Of a stretch of 26,117 bases of DNA, positions 6,283-24,526 are shown in pieces. Under the pieces are notes generated by a model. That model was not told the DNA's origin. It ran no database searches and saw only the letters and a list, made by a program, of their open reading frames with translations. The translations under genes were made by a program, and so were the position numbers. The stretch is from a virus. The stretch spans positions 1 through 26,117 of the IMG/VR virus record IMGVR_UViG_3300038701_001457, one strand, 5' to 3'. Position 1 is the first letter of the stretch. Every line of letters starts with the position of its first letter.

Positions 6283-7131
6283 CTACCTCCGCAGGTGCGT
6301 TAGAATAATGTTCAAGTCTTCTACGCTGTGGTGATCTGCGGTCGAAGATGGGCTGTCGTAACCATCAATCATAGTTGATCCGTCGTCCCATTCGTCAGTC
6401 ACGTAAATTTCCACAAAATACCTATAACCTGTATCGTCAAAATCCGCATCGCCCACTGCGGGAAGCGTATCTGCGTAAATGGCCGAAAACGGCACGGTCA
6501 CAGTCTGGTTGTTTGTTTCAAGCGCTGCCGGAAACTGGCTGTTTGAACTATCGCCCGCCTGAACCCAGCGCCAACTGCGCAGAACTGCTGACCCACCGCC
6601 TGAAAGCGGGCGGCGTAGCAGGTCGCACCGCATCACGCACCAGGCGTACGCGCCTAGGTCAATTGAGTGCTCAAAATCAACGCTGACCAGCACCGTTGCC
6701 TCGTTCTCAAAGTTGGTCAGATCGGCGTCATCTGTAACCGTTTGTGAGTTGCTGCGCTTTGGGTTGGTGTCGGTAAGAACGCCGCTCGCCAGCGCTTCGG
6801 CTACGATATCACTGACCGCTTTATTTCGGATGTTGCGAGTGTTTGCTTGGTCAACCCGCGCCAAATCACCCAGCGCCCCTAGCGCTGCCTGCAACTGTGC
6901 ATCTTGCGACCTTACAAGGCGCTCAACGGCTTCAATTCGATCTCGGTTCTCTTCAGCAAGGATAAACGGCGATATTGCCGCGTCATAAATTGCATCGCCG
7001 CCCTGACCCCCCGCCTGTATCTGCTGACCCTCAAGCCATACGCGCCAAGGGTAGGTCCATGTTCCCGTTTCAGGATCAATCGGGCGCGTTTCAAGCGGCG
7101 GGATTGCAGTGGGGTAGCGAAACTCTCTCAT
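6283..7131 (-). CDS. Tail protein with coiled coil, at the P22 tail-needle position
   Basis: I chose the ATG at 7131 (MREFRYPTAIPPLE), 282 residues, because it forms an ATGA overlap with the tail-hub gene; an in-frame start 24 nt upstream is less likely. Residues 1-45 are a Pro/Trp-rich attachment segment (TWTYPWRVWLEGQQIQ). Residues about 55-115 are predicted helix or coiled coil (RDRIEAVERLVRSQDAQLQA). Residues 120-282 are a beta-rich domain with Trp, Asp and Tyr-rich loops. In P22 the gene after gp10 is gp26, a trimeric coiled-coil needle that plugs the portal. Position and coiled coil fit, but the large C-terminal domain does not look like gp26. A short side fibre is the alternative. Confidence 0.5.
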   Translation of the reverse strand: MREFRYPTAIPPLETRPIDPETGTWTYPWRVWLEGQQIQAGGQGGDAIYDAAISPFILAEENRDRIEAVERLVRSQDAQLQAALGALGDLARVDQANTRNIRNKAVSDIVAEALASGVLTDTNPKRSNSQTVTDDADLTNFENEATVLVSVDFEHSIDLGAYAWCVMRCDLLRRPLSGGGSAVLRSWRWVQAGDSSNSQFPAALETNNQTVTVPFSAIYADTLPAVGDADFDDTGYRYFVEIYVTDEWDDGSTMIDGYDSPSSTADHHSVEDLNIILTHLRR

Positions 7132-8513
7132 GAGCGCGCCATGTTCAGCCAGCAATCAGAAACCGTTGTGCCAAACGGATCTGACCATGCAAGCTCTATT
7201 TTAAACACCGGCGGTTCCATACGCCCTAGCGGACCCCACTCAATGCGCTTGGCGTACTGGCCCGCCTTCGGGCCATCGCGCAGTATCTCATGCTCAAACA
7301 CCACCCCATCACGTGCAACGCGCAGCATAAATTTCGGGTCGCTGCCCTGACCTGTCACCGGGACGTTTTCAGAGCTGGTATACACGGTCAAGCGCTCGAC
7401 CTCGCTGTAGCTTGTAGCGCTGACAAGCGCTTGAGCAACGCGGCGAACCTCTGTCCCGGCCTCGTCGTACACCGTGCGCGACATTGAATAGATGCCACCA
7501 GCGCCGGTCGCGTAAGTCGTGCCAAACGCCTGCACAAAGTCATTAACGATGTGTGTGTCAGTGCCCAGCGTTTTTGCCCTATGCCACGCGCCAGTCAGCA
7601 AATCGTAATTCCATGCTCCCGTACCAGGTATCGTGACCCTGATAAACTCATGCCCGCGCCACTGATAGGAGCGCAGCTTTACAAGCGCCTGATTGGAGGC
7701 GCTTAAATCCTTGATATAGCCCTCAATAGCGCTCGTGCTAATTCGAGTCCGGGCCAGCCCATCAAGCCGGAAAATTTGCCCGGTCGTGGCGACCATAAAC
7801 ATGCTGTCGTCAGACTGACACACAGCATCGCGGCCAATGAGGCCAGATGGAAGCACAGCACCAGGCGAAGACCGAAACGCCGCGTCTTGATCGCCTGTTG
7901 GGGTCCACGCTTCAACGGTTGCCGTGCCGAAAAGGTAAATTCTGCCCTTGTAAGACTGAATGCTTAATAGGTTATCAGGCTCGCTTTCAGCAGTCGCAAA
8001 GCTGGTTGCAGATACGGTTGTGGGATCGCCTACGTCAGACCACCAAAAGCGCCCTGACCCGTCTTCAACGAACAAATGGCGCTGCCCCAGCTCTGCAACG
8101 CTTGTTATATCGCCCGATGCATTGCCCACCGTGATGGATGTGACCGACCCGCTCTCAACAAGGTATGCTGTGCCGCCTGATGTTGCGACAAGATCGGCCT
8201 GCGAAGCGGCAAACTGCGCATCGTAATTGTCGCTTGCTACCGTATCTATGACTGCGTTTGTTCCGCTTGATGTGACGCGCTCAAGGCTTGTGCCGTCCGC
8301 GTAGACAATTTGCCCAGACAGAATGCCGTCCGATTGGAACACGCCCCGAACGCCGGTTGATGCGGCCTGAAACAGCGTCAAGCCCGGTGTCGGCACAAGC
8401 CGAGGCGCACCAAGATGCGGCATCTGCTCAGGGTAGAGGTTGACCAGCTCAACAGTCGGCAGACCATACTCGTTATCATCCCAAGCGGTCAGGGCAAACG
8501 GCACGCGCTGCAT
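7128..8513 (-). CDS. Packaged-DNA stabilisation / tail hub protein (P22 gp10-like)
   Basis: A 461-residue protein whose start overlaps the previous stop (TAATG). The N-terminus carries VELVNLYPEQMP, a hallmark of the P22 gp10 family, then PTPGLTLFQ. After it come repeated beta segments of about 40-60 residues with W/F and GxIYxLxG-type turns (GRIYLFGTATVEAW, GQIFRLDG, GGIYSMSR), as expected for a beta-propeller-like hub. gp10 sits below gp4 at the portal vertex, closes the filled head and carries the tailspikes. The preceding gene is gp4-like, which matches the P22 order. Confidence 0.85.
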   Translation of the reverse strand: MQRVPFALTAWDDNEYGLPTVELVNLYPEQMPHLGAPRLVPTPGLTLFQAASTGVRGVFQSDGILSGQIVYADGTSLERVTSSGTNAVIDTVASDNYDAQFAASQADLVATSGGTAYLVESGSVTSITVGNASGDITSVAELGQRHLFVEDGSGRFWWSDVGDPTTVSATSFATAESEPDNLLSIQSYKGRIYLFGTATVEAWTPTGDQDAAFRSSPGAVLPSGLIGRDAVCQSDDSMFMVATTGQIFRLDGLARTRISTSAIEGYIKDLSASNQALVKLRSYQWRGHEFIRVTIPGTGAWNYDLLTGAWHRAKTLGTDTHIVNDFVQAFGTTYATGAGGIYSMSRTVYDEAGTEVRRVAQALVSATSYSEVERLTVYTSSENVPVTGQGSDPKFMLRVARDGVVFEHEILRDGPKAGQYAKRIEWGPLGRMEPPVFKIELAWSDPFGTTVSDCWLNMARS

Positions 8514-15684: not shown

Positions 15685-16040
15685 TATCTGCACCCCGTGT
15701 AATCGCGGTCAATCTCGCCAGCATCGGGTCGCGATACCCTAATGCGTAGCTCCTTGGTCTGGCCTGCGCTGTCGGTGATGCGGTGCTGGATCCGCCCAGC
15801 GTTACCGCTCACCGAAAACGTGTTGACGTTGCTCGCCGTAGTGATGCTTCCCACCGTCGGGCCGTTAACCTCATTGACGCTTGAGGTAATCGTTGCGCCG
15901 TTAAGCCAGTTGGTCCAGTCCACGTTGATGTTTAGCGTTTCGTCACGGTCCACATAAAACGACACAAACCCGCCCATGTCGGAACACCCTCGGCATAGCA
16001 GGCGACCATTCTCAAGCACTTTTACCAACCGGTCAGACAT
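15684..16040 (-). CDS. Ig-like beta-rich phage protein
   Basis: ATG at 16040 (MSDRLVKVLENGRLLCRGC), 118 residues, overlaps the previous gene by 8 nt and has AAGGG upstream; a start 48 nt further up would sit well inside that gene. From residue 25 it is nearly all beta strands: YVDRDETLNINVDWTNWLNG, TITSSVNEVNGPTVGSITTA, then GRIQHRITDSAGQTKELRIR. This pattern (NVDWTxWL, alternating strands, C-terminal 'TSAGxxKExxIxIxV') is seen in small Ig-like proteins of many tailed phages, usually linked to fibres or capsid decoration. Two Cys (CRGC) lie in the N-terminal segment. Function is inferred from fold only. Confidence 0.55.
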   Translation of the reverse strand: MSDRLVKVLENGRLLCRGCSDMGGFVSFYVDRDETLNINVDWTNWLNGATITSSVNEVNGPTVGSITTASNVNTFSVSGNAGRIQHRITDSAGQTKELRIRVSRPDAGEIDRDYTGCR

Positions 16041-16863
16041 AGCGATCAACCCTTGCCAGATATCCAGCCATGCCAGCAACAACGTCAACCCCTTCAGTTC
16101 CAGAAATAGCCGTCAGACGAACATCATGATTAGGCGGCACGATGAGCGCCGGTTCACCAGCGCCTAAAATTGATGTAGTTCCTGAAGTTGCTTCAGCACT
16201 AACGTATTGCTTCAATGGATACCAATCTTGGCCATCGTTGACAGGCTGAACCTCAATTCGAGACTGCGCAAATCTTCCAGCTTGCTTTTCAAGCACAGCG
16301 AGCGTCGCAGCAGTTATAATGTAAAAATCCGTGGAGCTAATAGTTGTTGACGCTTTTTGCGTTTGCGTTTCGCCAGCAGGAATAATGGCGTGAACTGTTG
16401 TCAAGTCGTCAGGAACGCCGTTAGTAGTTGCCCCGCCTTCGTGAACGTAAATTGTGCCGACCGCCGCTGAGGAGAGCCTGACACGTGTAACCCTTCCCCA
16501 ATCAAAGCCTGTGTCAACGCTGGTTTGCCCGGTCAAAGCCAATAAAGTCGTTGACTTGCGAAACAGCATATCGTCGCCGTCAAATTCATGGCCTTCAATT
16601 AGCGTAAGGTTCTGCGTGTCGCTGGCGCTGGTTGACGAAATAACCAAATTAACATTTGTGCTGGGCAGCGTTTCTTCAGTTTCGCCCGTCGGCAGCGTCA
16701 TCACCGTCGCTGGCGTAGCGCCAATTGCCTCATTGCGACCAAATTTTCTTAACGCTTTACGCTTGCTGCTAACGTCAGCAATCGCGCCGTAGCCCCCTTT
16801 AATGCGCTGCAAAGCGTGCCAAAGCGGATAATCAATGTCCGGCCTGAGATCAATGTCCATCAT
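16033..16863 (-). CDS. Beta-rich virion structural protein, first gene of the late operon
   Basis: A 276-residue protein. ATG at 16863 has AGAGG 9-10 nt upstream; a second ATG follows at once. Residues 45-65 (ATPATVMTLPTGETEETLPS) and 90-125 (IEGHEFDGDDMLFRKSTTLL, GQTSVDTG) reproduce a motif set frequent in marine phage structural proteins ('tvw.lpG....l', 'i.G...dG....e..tLnGqt.v.l'). WGRVTRVRLSSAA and IPAGETQTQKAST follow. The protein ends with a mixed alpha/beta segment. There is no signal peptide or enzyme motif. As first gene after the late leader it should be well expressed. A head fibre or minor capsid role is likely but not proven. Confidence 0.55.
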   Translation of the reverse strand: MMDIDLRPDIDYPLWHALQRIKGGYGAIADVSSKRKALRKFGRNEAIGATPATVMTLPTGETEETLPSTNVNLVISSTSASDTQNLTLIEGHEFDGDDMLFRKSTTLLALTGQTSVDTGFDWGRVTRVRLSSAAVGTIYVHEGGATTNGVPDDLTTVHAIIPAGETQTQKASTTISSTDFYIITAATLAVLEKQAGRFAQSRIEVQPVNDGQDWYPLKQYVSAEATSGTTSILGAGEPALIVPPNHDVRLTAISGTEGVDVVAGMAGYLARVDRYV

Positions 16864-16917
16864 GGCTCAGACCTCTTTAGAAATTGGTCAGCCGCCCCAT
16901 GCCTGGGGGAAGCACCT

Positions 16918-16936
16918 CACCACGCTAGGCGTGATG
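16918..16936. promoter_or_regulatory. Dyad in the late leader, possible operator
   Basis: CACCACGC-TAG-GCGTGATG: eight-base arms with one mismatch around a 3-nt centre, between the terminator and the first late gene. Size and symmetry suit a dimeric repressor or activator, or a small RNA hairpin. Confidence 0.35.
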
Positions 16937-17021
16937 TGATTTAAGGGGCAGGCTGTAGAGTGCCGGGCCTGTGCGTTAGGTTAAGCTCTTGGCTGTGTGG
17001 GGTGTCGCACGCCCGGAATGA

Positions 17022-17054
17022 GAAAACCCCGCCAGCAGTTAAGCCAGCGGGGTG
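17022..17054 (-). terminator. Intrinsic terminator between early and late blocks
   Basis: On the minus strand, ACCCCGC pairs with GCGGGGT around a 14-nt loop and runs straight into TTTTCTC. This is the clearest rho-independent terminator in the window. It would stop transcription from the early block and from the leader about 160 nt before the first late gene. Confidence 0.75.
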
Positions 17055-17105
17055 TGAGTCAGACCAGCGGAAATCCAAGCACCACCGCGAGCGGCTGTGG
17101 TGGGG

Positions 17106-17150
17106 TTAGATGCCGCCAAACCCTTCAATGATTGTCTCTGTTCCGGTCAT
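17106..17150 (-). CDS. Possible 14-residue micro-ORF before the terminator
   Basis: ATG at 17150 has GGAG 7 nt upstream (GGAGAGTGACGATG) and encodes MTGTETIIEGFGGI, ending about 50 nt before the terminator stem. It could be a leader peptide. Its small size makes chance occurrence likely, so this is a low-confidence call. Confidence 0.2.
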   Translation of the reverse strand: MTGTETIIEGFGGI

Positions 17151-17182
17151 CGTCACTCTCCGGCTATAGTTATCGGCGGGCC

Positions 17183-17229
17183 GGGCGACCTCTGCAACCC
17201 ACAAAGCCGGTTCGCTTCATCGGTCGCCC
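17183..17229. other. Perfect 8-bp stem-loop in the junction region
   Basis: GGGCGACC pairs exactly with GGTCGCCC across a 31-nt loop. It is too short to be a tRNA. It is the longest uninterrupted helix I found in the leader. Confidence 0.5.
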
Positions 17230-17527
17230 AGTGCCGATTTCGTTACTCTGTCTCCAGAGGGAAAACATAGACCCCTGGTGCGCTTCAATGAGAGGCGTGG
17301 GGGTCATGGTTGCCGTTACCCTGTCGCGGTTATCGCGCCTTGGGGCTATGTGGTCGGAGGGGGCGGCTGGTCCGCTCTGGCAGCCCGCTACCCCATGAGC
17401 ACGACAACACTTACGCGCGCTTAGGAAGTCGCTCCAGATCTCTTATCCCACGGCGCTATGAGCTGCCGGTGGGGTGTGTTTGAAGCGCCTATGGAAGCCG
17501 ATCCGGAGTAGGCCCAACTCAGCGCTT

Positions 17528-17545
17528 CGCGAGCTATAGCCCGCG
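17528..17545. promoter_or_regulatory. Near-palindrome in the junction region
   Basis: CGCGAGCTATAGCCCGCG is symmetric except for one mismatched pair, with GCTATAGC at its core. It is a possible protein-binding dyad. Confidence 0.35.
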
Positions 17546-17798
17546 TCTCATATGCCGCATCTCTGCGGAAACTGTTGCCCCGGCCACTGTTGCAGCAGCG
17601 AACCAAGGCTTGTCTCTCCCGTCCGTCCAAGGAAAGGAATTAGACAAATCATCCCGCATCCAGCATCACACTGGTGGAGCGGTGTAAGCAACCCCTCGGT
17701 GTTGCGCGTCACTGCCTTTGGATATGCCAGCAGGCTAAGCGTGAGGGGTGTTGTTTTCTGTGCCTAGCCGCAAATCTCGACTTCAGCGTTATGGACAC

Positions 17799-17827
17799 CA
17801 TTAGCCCAAAGGGCTATCACATGTCAA
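17799..17827 (-). promoter_or_regulatory. Sigma70-like promoter at the head of the leader
   Basis: Consensus -35 TTGACA (17827-17822), a 17-nt spacer, then CTAATG (17804-17799) as a weak -10. It lies 7 nt after the stop codon of the last early gene and points to the late block. A small hairpin (TAGCCC/GGGCTA, 17802-17816) overlaps the -10 side. The -35 is strong and the -10 mediocre. Confidence 0.4.
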
Positions 17828-17833
17828 ATTAAA

Positions 17834-18346
17834 TTACGCCGCGCGGTTGCCCGCCACAAACAGGCCAGCCAGCACCGCCGCCCCGGCCTTGAGCGCATCG
17901 ACGTTGCGAGGCGGTCGCTGGTCACACAGGCTCACTACTTCATCAAATGCACCGGGTATCGCGTCCAGCAATGCGCAGGCGTCGGCATAGGCAACCTTCG
18001 CCCTGCAAATCCGTTCTTCGCTTGTCTCCGCGCTTGGCGTTTGCGGCTGCTGTTGAGCCAGTACGCCTGCGGGTTGATACTCAGCAACACCCAGCACACG
18101 GCGCACACCGGCGAAGGCTTCGACGCCCTGGCCTTGCTCTTGCGTGAGAATGCCGCGTTCAACAGCCCGGTCGATCAGGCAGCTAGGCCCGACTTCTTTA
18201 CGATGCCGCAAAAGCTCCGGCGTCGGCTCACATCGGGCAACCTCGATGCGTCCGCGCCGCGTGGTCGGCTTGCCCGGCTTTGCCGCGCTCATGGGGTGCG
18301 GTGCTTTGCGCTTGTGCTTGCGGCGGGTTTTATTGGTTTTCGCCAT
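17834..18346 (-). CDS. Basic-tailed hypothetical protein at the end of the early operon (candidate late regulator)
   Basis: ATG at 18346 has AGGAGG upstream and gives 170 residues; a longer frame to 18376 lacks a ribosome site. Residues 3-14 (KTNKTRRKHKRK) contain eight Lys/Arg, like the arginine-rich RNA-binding motifs of lambdoid N proteins. TPELLRHRKEVGP and RAVERGILTQEQGQGVEAFA follow, then a helical C-terminus (ALLDAIPGAFDEVVSLCDQR, DALKAGAAVLAGLFVAG). The 'GxLTxEQ..A' segment and the end resemble small alphaproteobacterial phage/prophage proteins of unknown function. It is the last early gene, immediately before the late promoter-like sequence, where lambda has Q. An antitermination role is inference only. 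Confidence 0.65.
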   Translation of the reverse strand: MAKTNKTRRKHKRKAPHPMSAAKPGKPTTRRGRIEVARCEPTPELLRHRKEVGPSCLIDRAVERGILTQEQGQGVEAFAGVRRVLGVAEYQPAGVLAQQQPQTPSAETSEERICRAKVAYADACALLDAIPGAFDEVVSLCDQRPPRNVDALKAGAAVLAGLFVAGNRAA

Positions 18347-18551
18347 GATCGGCCTCCTGTCCAAGCTGCTGCACACGGTCCAAAGCTTGCGCCCGGTCCC
18401 ATTCCACCTTTGCCCGCTCCACAGCGTCTAGGGCGTTGTCCAGCTTCACCCGCTGAGGGCTTGGCGTCGTGCTGACGGGGGCCAGCATTTCACGCACCGT
18501 CACCACAAGCCGGGCTGATGCGTTTCGTAACGCTTTGCATTCGTCACTCAT
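18330..18551 (-). CDS. Small hypothetical helical protein
   Basis: A 73-residue protein starting in an ATGA overlap with the initiator gene and ending 17 nt inside the next gene. It is predicted all-helical (KALRNASARLVVTVREMLAP, then KLDNALDAVERAKVEWDRAQ) with an acidic C-terminus, possibly a coiled coil. No membrane or DNA-binding motif is seen. Coupling to the initiator gene suggests an early-phase role, but I do not recognise it. Confidence 0.6.
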   Translation of the reverse strand: MSDECKALRNASARLVVTVREMLAPVSTTPSPQRVKLDNALDAVERAKVEWDRAQALDRVQQLGQEADHGENQ

Positions 18552-20682: not shown

Positions 20683-20984
20683 CACGCGCCCCCGTAATTG
20701 TCTAAAAGCTGCTTTGCGGCGCGAACATACCCTTCAAGCACCAAGCGCTTGTCGCGATCTGTGGCGTAGTGACTAATCATATCCTTTAGGTCTTCACGCG
20801 CAAGCGCTGTCGCATCGAAAGCATCTGTGTCTTTGCCTTTCACACGGACGGGGCGGATACCCATATCGGCATTGATCATGCTCACATATGGACGTGAGAC
20901 ACCGGCCTCCTCCGCAATCTTGTGAAACGGCTTGTGCGGTTCATTGCGCAGGCTGTTAATGACTTTTTGGGCTTTCTTCGACAT
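20682..20984 (-). CDS. Small HTH DNA-binding protein
   Basis: ATG at 20984 (MSKKAQKVINSLRNEPHKPF), 100 residues, forms TGATG coupling with the gcrA-like stop; another ATG 6 nt upstream is possible. Residues 19-42 (FHKIAEEAGVSRPYVSMINA) are a clear helix-turn-helix. The C-terminal half is helical (ALAREDLKDMISHYATDRDK, then VLEGYVRAAKQLLDNYG). It might regulate early genes or act in replication, since it sits between gcrA-like and dnaB-like genes. Family not identified. Confidence 0.65.
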   Translation of the reverse strand: MSKKAQKVINSLRNEPHKPFHKIAEEAGVSRPYVSMINADMGIRPVRVKGKDTDAFDATALAREDLKDMISHYATDRDKRLVLEGYVRAAKQLLDNYGGA

Positions 20985-21733
20985 CACCATGCCAGCACTT
21001 TCTGGCGGCGCTCGCCTCGCGCTGACACCTCATCTAAAAAGCTATCCAGCCCGCCCTTATCTGCCTTAGCATTAAGCTCGACCTCATGGCCGCTAACGCT
21101 GACAGAGTAATGGTCCTTGCAGTACGAGCTGCCAGCGCGAGCCTTAGCGCCACAGAACAGATGCTCCTCGCCGGGTTTGGCGTCATTGACCGGCCACCGG
21201 CACTGACCGGCTTGCAGTTCTTTAATTGGCACACGGCGCGCATCAGGGTTAGCAGTTTCAGCCTCCTTCAATCGACGCAGCACCGCATCCGGCTGCTCAA
21301 CCCGTGTTGAGCCCCTCTGTGCGCCCTGGACGCCTTTAATGACGTTCGGGCGATTGCCTTCCAGCGTCTTACGCTTGCGCTGTGTGCGCGGCTTTTTGGG
21401 TTTGACCGCTTTTGGCCGCACTACTCGATTAACCGGCAACTTTAACCGCAAGCGCTTTGCGCTAATGGCGCGAGAGTCTTTGCCCATCGCCTCAGCGATT
21501 TGAGCGTCAGTCTTACCGTCGGCCCACAGCGCCTTAAACTGCTCTGTTTCTTCGTCTGACCACTGATTGCCGCCGCGCTGCAAGCCCAGCCGGTTCAGGC
21601 GACCAATCACGGCATTTCGCGTTACGCCGCCGCCAAACTTGTCAGCAATCTTCGCGGCGCTCAGGCCCTGCTCCCAAAGCTCGGCTAACGCTTTATCGCG
21701 TGCCTCAGTCCAGGTTTGATGTCCTCGTGTCAT
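20984..21733 (-). CDS. gcrA: GcrA-family regulator with duplicated HTH segment
   Basis: A 249-residue protein with GAGAGG 8-9 nt before its ATG. Residues 7-51 are the canonical GcrA DNA-binding helix-turn-helix (WTEARDKALAELWEQGLSAA, then GGGVTRNAVIGRLNRLGL). Residues 57-99 are a second, related copy (QWSDEETEQFKALWADGKTD, AQIAEAMGKDSRAISAKRLR). Residues 103-160 are a basic linker. Residues 170-209 carry the conserved C-terminal motif with CRWP (C178), FCG (C194) and SYCKDHY (C205, H208), which in Caulobacter GcrA contacts sigma70 region 2. GcrA activates promoters with methylated GANTC. Canonical GcrA has one HTH and about 170 residues, so the duplication is unusual. It probably recruits host RNA polymerase to phage or host promoters. 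Confidence 0.88.
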   Translation of the reverse strand: MTRGHQTWTEARDKALAELWEQGLSAAKIADKFGGGVTRNAVIGRLNRLGLQRGGNQWSDEETEQFKALWADGKTDAQIAEAMGKDSRAISAKRLRLKLPVNRVVRPKAVKPKKPRTQRKRKTLEGNRPNVIKGVQGAQRGSTRVEQPDAVLRRLKEAETANPDARRVPIKELQAGQCRWPVNDAKPGEEHLFCGAKARAGSSYCKDHYSVSVSGHEVELNAKADKGGLDSFLDEVSARGERRQKVLAW

Positions 21734-21744
21734 AAAATCACCTC

Positions 21745-22140
21745 TCAGCGTTCAATCGGCTTGGTGGCCGAGCGTTGGGGTTTGGATTTGGGAAAGCCGC
21801 GACCCTTCGGCAGCTTCGCGCCTTGCTGAAACCACCCAGGCTTAGGCCGGTCCTTGCGGACCTTGTGCGCGTTGCGCTTGCGGCGCATGGCTTGGTCACT
21901 TGCGCTCTTAATTTTGTGGCAAGGCTTGCAAAGGTGCGCCCCGTCCGCAGCGGTCAAATCCGCGCTCTTGTCGGTTTCCAGCGTGTCTGCGAAAACGTGG
22001 TCGATATCCACCGCAGGCCGGTCGCAATGCTTCGGAAACATATGCGCGATATCGGCTGGCATACGGTGGCACTCGCACACGCCGCCGGAGCGCTGGCGAA
22101 TCTCAGCCTTTACGGGCTCGCGGAACTCACGGCGGCTCAT
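21745..22140 (-). CDS. HNH endonuclease
   Basis: A 131-residue protein with an ATGA overlap with the methyltransferase stop. Residues 22-24 (CEC) and 71-74 (CKPC) are two zinc-binding Cys pairs flanking DIDH (45-48), with CHKIKSASD closing the HNH core at 74-82. The usual Asn before the second Cys pair is absent; the segment reads DGAHLC. The C-terminal 50 residues are very basic (RRKRNAHKVRKDRPK). HNH enzymes in this position may nick DNA for packaging or replication, or act as free-standing homing-type nucleases. Distance from terS/terL argues against a packaging role. Confidence 0.8.
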   Translation of the reverse strand: MSRREFREPVKAEIRQRSGGVCECHRMPADIAHMFPKHCDRPAVDIDHVFADTLETDKSADLTAADGAHLCKPCHKIKSASDQAMRRKRNAHKVRKDRPKPGWFQQGAKLPKGRGFPKSKPQRSATKPIER

Positions 22141-23138
22141 GCTGCTGTTCCGAACAGATCGCCCGCAGACTGCGCAGCGCCCGCTAGGTTGCGCCCTGCC
22201 TGCTCAGCATATTCAGGCTTCAATTCAAAGCCGAGATAGCGGCGCAGCATCTTGAGCGCGACATAGCCTGTTGAGCCGATCCCGTTGAACGGGTCCATAA
22301 CTACATCGCCGGGCTTTGAATAAAGCCGCAAGCAATTCTCGATTACGTCCAGTTGAAGCGGGCAGACGTGCTTTTCATCGTCAGCGCCCTTAGCCGCGCG
22401 CCAGTTGTTCAGCACATTGCCCTGCTGAATGTTCATCCAGACCGGCGAGGCAAGCTTTTGCCACTCCATCACGTCAAACTCGACATGGGAAATCAGCACC
22501 GCCAGCGCGGCATCGTCGGGAACGTCGCGCACAAGCCCATCGCGACGCATGGCCTCAAGCCATTTACCGGCGATCTTGACGCGCTCTTTTTCATCGCCCG
22601 GCGCGCAGTGTTCAATCCGATCCGGGTTCTCTCCCGGAGCGCGGAAAAACAGCATGTAGTCCGGCATCCCGATCCGGTTCATGGCGCTATCTTTGCGAAT
22701 TTGCTTATAAAGCAGGCCCAGCGCCTTGGTGCGCTGCATCTCGACTACCGGGTCTTTCCATATCGTCGTGCGCCCGTGATAAATAAGCCCAGCGTCAGTG
22801 TGCGCCTTGATTAAATCTCCGGAAAAGTCCTGCAATCCGATATATCCATGCTTGCCCTTGCGGGTCGGAAGGTCAGTGCAATGGACGCAGACAATCCGGC
22901 CTGGCTTCATCACGCGGGTCAGCGCATGAGCGAAGAATGCGTACTGGTTGACAAACGCGTCACCCTCTCCCGCGTTGCCTAAGTCGCGCTCGCTATCAGA
23001 GTAAACGAACAGATCACCAAAAGGCGGCGAAAACACCGCGCAATCAACCGACGCCTCCGGCATGGCGTGCATACCTTCGATGCAGTCGGAATTGTGCAGA
23101 GCCCAGCCCTGCCCTTCATATTCGGGTTGTTTCGCCAT
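22137..23138 (-). CDS. Beta-class DNA methyltransferase (N6_N4_Mtase family)
   Basis: ATG at 23138 gives 333 residues; it lies in a TAATG overlap and has GGAGG 8 nt upstream, so the 24-nt longer frame is rejected. Catalytic motif IV is SPPF at 37-40, and the AdoMet motif I is DPFNGIGSTG at 282-291. IV before I marks the beta class. KHVCPLQLDVIENCLRLYSK precedes motif I and GFELKPEYAEQA follows it, as in COG0863. SPP[YF] is more often found in N4-cytosine enzymes than in N6-adenine ones (DPPY), but this is not decisive. The central 200 residues hold the target domain. It is coupled to a SNF2-type helicase and an HNH gene and close to a gcrA-like gene. Target unknown. Confidence 0.88.
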   Translation of the reverse strand: MAKQPEYEGQGWALHNSDCIEGMHAMPEASVDCAVFSPPFGDLFVYSDSERDLGNAGEGDAFVNQYAFFAHALTRVMKPGRIVCVHCTDLPTRKGKHGYIGLQDFSGDLIKAHTDAGLIYHGRTTIWKDPVVEMQRTKALGLLYKQIRKDSAMNRIGMPDYMLFFRAPGENPDRIEHCAPGDEKERVKIAGKWLEAMRRDGLVRDVPDDAALAVLISHVEFDVMEWQKLASPVWMNIQQGNVLNNWRAAKGADDEKHVCPLQLDVIENCLRLYSKPGDVVMDPFNGIGSTGYVALKMLRRYLGFELKPEYAEQAGRNLAGAAQSAGDLFGTAA

Positions 23139-24526
23139 TACGCGGCCTCCGTTTTGATCCAATGGGGAAAGGCAAGATCAAGCGGGCGCTCGTATTTGAC
23201 ACGGCGAGCCGCAACGGACTGAGCCTTGCGCATGGCGTCGGCCATGCGTCGCTTCATCTCGTCGTGCTTCTTGCCCTTAAGGTTTACAGCGTCCCAAATT
23301 GACCGCTCAGTGTCAGCGATTACGATATCATTGCGGACGCGCTGGTTCTGGCCGAAACGATGCGAGCGCCGTACGGCCTGATAATGCTGCTCATATGAAA
23401 AGCTAATCGAGGCAAACACGGCATGGGCGCAGTGCTGCCAGTTTACGCCAAACCCAGCCAGCTTCGGCTTGGTGACGATGCAGCGGATTTCGCCATCCGC
23501 GAACGCCAGCAAGCGCCGCTCTTTTTCATCCGGATCAAGTGAGCCGTGAATCTCGACCGCGCCAGGAATTAGCTCGGCAAGGCGCGCGCTTTCATCGTTT
23601 GTCTCACACCAGACTGTTACTGGCTTATCGTGCGTCGCCAGATCAGCAGCAATCTTGCACCGGGCTTCTAGCGTCAACCGCTTCTCTTGGTGGAAGCTGG
23701 TCGCGCTCATTTCGGGGATGCGAAACAAAAACTCACCGCTATCCTCTGTCCGATCAGCCGTGACTTCATGGACTTGACGGTTAATGTCGGGCAGGACATA
23801 GCCCGCGTCGTCGCCGCCAAGGTCAGAGGGAAGCGTGGCGCACCGCGACCAGCTTGCAACCCATGACCAAAAGTCTTCGACCGCATGGCCCTTCAGCCGC
23901 CATTCCTGCGAAGCCGTCGCGGTATCGTTCACAAACCACTTCGAAAGCATTTCCTGCTGGCGCATGACGCCCAGGAACTCCGCGTGGTTGCCAAGCTCCA
24001 TATGATCGTTCGGGCTTGGCGTCGCGGTTGCAGCGAGCTTGTATGGCGTATCATGAAATGTGGCCATTAGGTCATTACGGGTCCGGCCCGCAAAGCTTTT
24101 TAAAATTGAGCTTTCATCTAGCACTACCGCGCCAAACGCATCCGGGTCTAGCTTCTTAAGGCGCTCATAGTTGGCGACCATGACGCCCGCGCCGACTTCG
24201 GATTGCTCGCGAATTTGGCGAGCGTCGATCCCGAACTTTTGACCCTCGCGGACCATCTGCCCAGCCACAGCGAGCGGCGTAAGGATAAGAGAAGGCTTGC
24301 CGGTTTCCTCAGCGCACTGGCGCGCAAACTCAAGCTCAATAAAGCTCTTGCCTAAGCCGGTATCAAGAAACGCCGCAGACTTGCCGCGCTCAAGAGCAAA
24401 GCGAATTACTGCGTCCTGATGCGCTTTTGCCATAGGATTTATGGGATGCGGATCGAACCCCTGTTTTGCCGTTTCAACAGCACGCGAGGCAATGAACGCG
24501 CGGTAATCTTCAAGCGAATAGCTCAT
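23138..24526 (-). CDS. SNF2-type superfamily 2 helicase/ATPase
   Basis: A 462-residue protein with an ATGA overlap. The motifs are AHQDAVIRFALERG (Q-like), motif I FLDTGLGKSF at 53-62, motif II VLDESSIL at 135-142 (DESS in place of DEAH), motif III ATATPSPND at 166-174, motif V TKPKLAGFGVNWQ from 352 and motif VI QAVRRSHRFGQNQ at 383-395. RxHRxGQ is diagnostic of SNF2 enzymes. Such proteins are common in the replication blocks of phages infecting alphaproteobacteria. They translocate on duplex DNA and could remodel protein-DNA complexes during replication or recombination. Its coupling to the methyltransferase suggests joint action but does not prove it. Confidence 0.9.
   Translation of the reverse strand: MSYSLEDYRAFIASRAVETAKQGFDPHPINPMAKAHQDAVIRFALERGKSAAFLDTGLGKSFIELEFARQCAEETGKPSLILTPLAVAGQMVREGQKFGIDARQIREQSEVGAGVMVANYERLKKLDPDAFGAVVLDESSILKSFAGRTRNDLMATFHDTPYKLAATATPSPNDHMELGNHAEFLGVMRQQEMLSKWFVNDTATASQEWRLKGHAVEDFWSWVASWSRCATLPSDLGGDDAGYVLPDINRQVHEVTADRTEDSGEFLFRIPEMSATSFHQEKRLTLEARCKIAADLATHDKPVTVWCETNDESARLAELIPGAVEIHGSLDPDEKERRLLAFADGEIRCIVTKPKLAGFGVNWQHCAHAVFASISFSYEQHYQAVRRSHRFGQNQRVRNDIVIADTERSIWDAVNLKGKKHDEMKRRMADAMRKAQSVAARRVKYERPLDLAFPHWIKTEAA

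Follow-up and report, generated by a model that had tools for sequence, protein, structure and literature searches.

A candidate late-operon control junction with an expanded untranslated leader in a phage with alphaproteobacterial signs

The gap ahead of the late operon

What does a phage do with 970 bases that carry no gene and lie at the entrance of its late operon? The DNA considered here, called the window in its whole length, is the IMG/VR virus record IMGVR_UViG_3300038701_001457 (26,117 bases). Its substantial genes are all on the minus strand, and its PHROG matches include portal, coat, head closure and terminase. Between g180 and g276, the first gene of the late operon, lies a gap of 970 bases (16864-17833); the second-largest intergenic gap in the window is 159 bases. 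Read along the minus strand, the parts of the locus are:

17834-18376, minus strand: g180, the last gene before the junction; its family has a PTPE motif and a basic N-terminus in alignments
17804-17836, minus strand: an element shared with relatives, TAATTTAATTT-N15-TTTGGGC, which begins inside the g180 stop codon
17822-17827, minus strand: a -35-like TTGACA, exact, starting 7 nt past the end of the g180 stop codon
17800-17805, minus strand: a -10-like GCTAAT at 16-nt spacing, with four of six consensus matches and without A at position 2
17054-17793, minus strand: the untranslated leader, about 740 nt, noncoding, from the promoter-like site to the terminator
17026-17053, minus strand: an intrinsic terminator, an 11-pair stem followed by TTTCTCAT; -21.4 kcal/mol
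16864-17025, minus strand: a second untranslated stretch of 162 nt, from the terminator to the first late gene
16033-16863, minus strand: g276, the first late-operon gene, with 53-57% identity to the first late gene of the related contigs L200 and L196
13735-16088, minus strand: the start of the late operon, with g134, g62 and the small and large terminase subunits

A preliminary description of this DNA had called the gap gene-free, and had named a conserved protein encoded here as what would speak against its reading. When codon usage was scanned with a model trained on the genes of this phage, all six frames of the gap came out negative and the flanking genes mostly positive, and the stop-to-stop pieces of the gap give no convincing match to Pfam or PHROGs, at most at the level of noise. 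By codon usage, Pfam and PHROG alike, then, the 970 bases are noncoding on both strands, and no conserved protein is found in them. No tRNA or tmRNA is present, and no Rfam covariance model matches the gap at its gathering score or, convincingly, at a relaxed threshold. Compared with phages, plasmids, related phage records and 385 alphaproteobacterial genomes, the DNA of the gap gives short chance matches and one 31-nt terminator match only. A replication origin was considered and set aside, the gap having neither a repeat array nor an AT-rich stretch. One short open reading frame of 14 codons (MTGTETIIEGFGGI, 17106-17150, minus strand) has a good ribosome-binding site, GGAGAG, and ends about 50 nt before the terminator; it is possibly a leader peptide.

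Relatives share the layout of the junction

A terminase search returned the contigs L002, L003 and L004 at 66-70%, and a profile of g134, homologs of which are present in these three, returned L196 and L197, which also carry it. The leader pattern TTTCNGTTTGGGCCTCC further returned L200, L201, L205 and L207, and viral scans using the first late gene, RepO and DnaB gave zero relatives. In the nine IMG/VR contigs, a single strong terminator stands at the entry of the late operon. In most of them its stem is preceded, at 42-94 nt, by a sigma70 promoter located at, or close to, the end of the gene upstream. In the window as in its relatives, a gene is followed by a promoter-like site, then a terminator and then the late operon. 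The entrance terminators are predicted at -21.4 kcal/mol in the window, -21.0 in each of L003 and L004, with identical stems, -16.2 in L002, -18.6 in L196 and -14.5 in L197. The distance from stop to terminator stem is 42 nt in L196, 51 in L197, 59 in L200, 61 in L003/L004, 94 in L002/L201, 441 in L205 and 780 in the window.

In the three relatives in which a member of the g180 family directly precedes the junction, the best promoter of the stretch touches the stop of that gene (TTGACC-16-TAGAAT in L196, TTGACC-16-TAGTAT in L200 and TTGACA-17-GATTAT in L197), and the terminator stem stands 42-59 nt past the stop. L002, L201, L207 and L205 carry TTGACG-17-CATATT upstream of the terminator, and promoter spacers vary between lineages. 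In L003/L004 the first late gene begins 11-19 nt behind the terminator; that interval is too short to hold a promoter, and so transcription has to cross the terminator. The roughly 90 nt before the terminators of these two contigs are nearly identical (one difference), while the adjacent coding DNA diverges more.

In the seven other contigs (L002, L196, L197, L200, L201, L205 and L207), a module of about 200 nt is conserved, consisting of the promoter, the terminator and the next ~130 nt. This module has no match among Rfam families or the named phages of the searched collection, and a covariance model of the relatives' leader finds weak matches only in the 385 genomes. Its sequence (the terminator plus ~130 nt, TTTCNGTTTGGGCCTCC ... 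GGCCCAA) was not found in the window by nhmmer or by the covariance model R1, and positions 16864-17025 hold no recognisable sequence of the relatives' conserved element. Because the conserved leader sequence of the relatives is missing from the window, its assignment is based on layout and not on sequence.

The terminator and the promoter-like site

An intrinsic terminator had been placed at 17022-17054 from the letters of the DNA, and it is borne out: the stem spans 17053-17026 and, at -21.4 kcal/mol, is the best in the window and the strongest on the minus strand, the runner-up reaching -15.3. It has a 31-nt match to a terminator in one of the 385 alphaproteobacterial genomes. A terminator very similar to it lies at L222:1495-1535, behind a response-regulator-like gene of an alphaproteobacterial genome. 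Between the terminator and the first late gene, the minus strand also carries a palindrome, CACGCCTAGCGTG (16921-16933), possibly an operator.

For the other end of the gap, the promoter TTGACA-17-CTAATG had been proposed. Its exact TTGACA is present at 17827-17822, but at 17-nt spacing the -10 agrees with the consensus at one position of six, and the best reading is TTGACA-16-GCTAAT. A rule-based promoter scan rejects this pair because its -10 lacks A at position 2. By a weighted score, the pair ranks best in the gap and second among 26 such 970-nt blocks, and thus is not exceptional by score alone. It is credible because its position matches that in the relatives, in which TTGAC[AC] stands at -10 (L196), -3 (L197) and +5 (L200) from the end of the corresponding stop codon; the occurrence of TTGAC[ACG] at +7 from the g180 stop in the window would be expected about 0.05 times by chance. 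The statement that no good sigma70 promoter lies between the terminator and the first late gene is upheld by both the rule-based scan and the weighted score.

The promoter-like site overlaps the shared element. At the g180 stop, the window reads ATTTAATTT-N15-TTTGGGC, and L003/L004 read ATTTAATTT-N15-TTTAGGC immediately past the stop of the final gene ahead of the terminator, in their case with no TTGAC -35 at the element. Among 96 loci scanned, ATTTAATTT-N15-TTTRGGC is found only in the window and L003/L004, and the further matches of an IMG/VR scan are AT-rich or otherwise irrelevant. Because the element is short and was noticed post hoc, it is counted as supporting evidence only.

A probable lambda-style switch

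From its sequence and layout, we favor, with somewhat better than even confidence, a reading of the gap as a late-operon control junction composed of a lambda-style promoter, an expanded leader, a terminator and read-through. Transcription on the minus strand would start near 17793, from the promoter where g180 ends (-35 TTGACA, 17827-17822). Unaided polymerase would be halted at 17053-17026, and an RNA of ~770 nt would be released. Loading of a phage factor at the promoter would then allow the terminator to be passed, and g276 and the terminase, head and tail genes would be expressed, in the manner of Q at lambda pR'-tR'. The candidate for this factor would be g180 or another early protein. 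We infer the start at 17793, the stop at the terminator, and passage by a phage factor rather than avoidance of the terminator; the junction probably works by read-through (antitermination).

This type of junction is already known, and the expanded leader is what sets the window apart. The lambda-type pR'-tR'/Q systems (lambda, 21 and 82) likewise have a promoter where the preceding gene ends, an untranslated leader, an intrinsic terminator and a late operon in one direction. A promoter directly upstream of the entrance terminator is clearly present in the relatives; in the window, the terminator is there and the promoter has an exact -35 and a weak -10. The window differs from the lambda type in its alphaproteobacterial signs and in having no recognisable Q protein. 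Its leader would be ~770 nt long, compared with under ~100 nt in most relatives; the lambda late leader is roughly 200 nt. Thus, the earlier likening of the gap to a longer version of the lambda pR'-tR' late leader stands as to the parts, which come in the same order as in the relatives, and as to the much greater length, and is qualified by the weak -10.

Q-dependent leaders have a Q-binding element between the -35 and the -10 and, among the first bases to be transcribed, a pause element that resembles a -10 (PMC6606751). In the gene transfer agent of Caulobacter crescentus, a GafY/GafZ antitermination switch controls a phage-like late cluster that is preceded by 229 nt of untranslated sequence, and the antiterminator is thought to load between the -35 and the -10 (PMC11150451). 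The alphaproteobacterial setting and the late cluster behind an untranslated region are common to that system and the window. There, however, the terminator follows the first gene, and no GafZ (DUF6456, PF20057) is found in the window or the nine related records, while the control genome of Caulobacter vibrioides is positive.

Late-gene control in phages apparently infecting alphaproteobacteria seems little described. The ~200-nt module of the relatives provides small, directly testable DNA fragments, and the window is a natural variant, its leader grown about tenfold, that can show if the switch depends on leader length.

Other readings of the late-operon entrance

The terminator could instead be an ordinary boundary that ends the early operon, with an activated, non-sigma70 late promoter in the 162 nt before g276 and no antitermination. 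In favor of such a promoter are the stretch behind the terminator, which is of similar length, 145-174 nt, in the window, L196, L197 and L200 and is conserved in the relatives, and the DNA-binding proteins of the phage, one of them GcrA-like. Nevertheless, we consider it rather unlikely: the 162 nt of the window have no promoter-like site, the late gene of L003/L004 is only 11-19 nt behind the terminator, and the good promoter that relatives have just ahead of the terminator would be pointless if the terminator merely ended early transcripts. The gap also lies upstream of the terminase genes, and packaging sites (cos or pac) had been suggested for it. The relatives make this very improbable. 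L201 and L205 have an L002-type leader but a different terminase family (phrog_979), and L201 has different portal and coat families as well (phrog_145 and phrog_283). The conservation of the module across phages whose terminases, portals and coats are unrelated speaks against a packaging site, and on these gene assignments the conserved leader module is not a terminase-matched packaging site; nor does the gap of the window contain a repeat array. The module seems rather to move together with the early genes, which is what a transcription switch would be expected to do.

Comparison of L201, L205 and L207 with L002 reveals module exchange in its own right: the late leader and the preceding gene are nearly the same, the terminase, portal and coat are unrelated, and the border lies behind the leader.

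The expanded leader

Relative to its relatives, the window has about 740 extra noncoding nt from the promoter-like site to the terminator, with the promoter-like site in the same place. Hairpins had been emphasized in the preliminary description. However, the 10 helices with a pairing probability above 0.9 in the leader are not beyond chance, as 24 shuffles give 1 to 16. The folding energy of the 786-nt leader (z about -3.2 to -3.4) is equalled by 3 of 16 other (coding) tiles, and among 200-nt minus-strand tiles only the one that holds the terminator stands out (z -2.3). A helix that would close both ends of the leader (16 pairs above 0.9) was rejected: in duplex energy, 7% of segment shuffles do as well, and so do 29% of random 50-mer pairs. 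Because the helix count, the tile energies and the end helix match controls, nothing points strongly to the leader as a structured RNA. No homolog of the leader was found for a covariation test.

A functional structured noncoding RNA, acting in trans or by cis antitermination in the manner of HK022 put, is consequently hard to credit, and we hold it to be quite improbable. The HK022 put RNA is ~70 nt long, has two stem-loops and acts in early operons (PMC9378689). Like it, the leader would be nascent RNA that follows a phage promoter and precedes a terminator; unlike it, the leader belongs to a late junction, and no conserved RNA structure is found in it. The earlier suggestion of a put-like RNA finds no support, with helix content and end-to-end pairing both at shuffle level. 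What speaks for a noncoding RNA is that the DNA is retained in a compact genome, folds at low energy (z about -3.3) and has a promoter-like site and terminator of its own; against it stand, besides the shuffles and the 3 of 16 tiles that fold equally well, the lack of an Rfam match and the fact that no relative carries such a leader and the relatives function without one. GOLLD and ROOL are likewise noncoding stretches of several hundred nt in phages, from which the leader differs in having no Rfam match at the gathering score and none convincing at a relaxed threshold. There is an equally slim chance that the ~740 nt act as a long RNA that antiterminates or delays in cis, or as a regulatory RNA that is released, and that they were added to a switch whose relatives use less than ~100 nt.

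The interval between promoter and terminator accepts noncoding inserts, because L205 independently carries one with both ends intact. This insert, 162 nt between an intact promoter (TTGACG-17-CATATT) and the terminator, is flanked by 11-nt direct repeats, GACACGGCGCG, and has no sequence in common with that of the window. The window is an extreme case of such noncoding insertion, and its extra ~740 nt are most likely DNA acquired where inserts are tolerated and not needed by the switch. That this DNA is one or more decayed cargo genes is suggested by L003/L004, in which about three small ORFs separate the g180-family gene from the late terminator. Yet residual coding signal is absent in every frame, the stop-to-stop pieces match no protein family, and there is no similarity to the small genes of L003/L004, which leaves decay improbable. 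As a further observation, L205 has three noncoding inserts around one late leader relative to L201/L002 (L205:7085-7250, 6806-7000 and ~7340-7395), one of them with a flanking 11-nt direct repeat.

The gene preceding the junction

By its place in the genome, g180 is the positional analogue of Q. Its family stands directly upstream of the junction in L196, L197 and L200 (g180 and the L200 protein share 30% over 120 aa by tblastn, 2e-5), and in L003/L004 small genes intervene. Neither g180 nor its relatives match Pfam, PHROG or NCBIfam, and an AlphaFold model of g180 (pLDDT 67) has no fold match in the PDB; in these family and fold searches, a Q-type antiterminator encoded just upstream is not recognised. 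In L002, L201 and L205, the leader is preceded by a gene for a 201-aa protein that is unrelated to g180 and 100% identical between L002 and L201. Because this protein takes the place of g180, the gene preceding the leader need not be the antiterminator.

Signs of the host

GcrA and CcrM are an alphaproteobacterial regulatory pair, and GANTC is the CcrM site. The window encodes a GcrA-like protein (20984-21733, minus strand; PF07750, 5e-36) that has an additional, similar-looking stretch at its N-terminus, and GANTC occurs 14 times in the whole window versus 79 expected from shuffles. The GcrA-like protein and the strong depletion of GANTC suggest an alphaproteobacterial host. A tie of GANTC or GcrA to the junction was dropped: the one GANTC there (17056-17060) lies 2-3 nt before the terminator stem, ~0.5 are expected in the gap, and the leader of L003/L004 has none. 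Close to the GcrA-like gene lies a DNA methylase (22137-23162) with partial similarity to CcrM.
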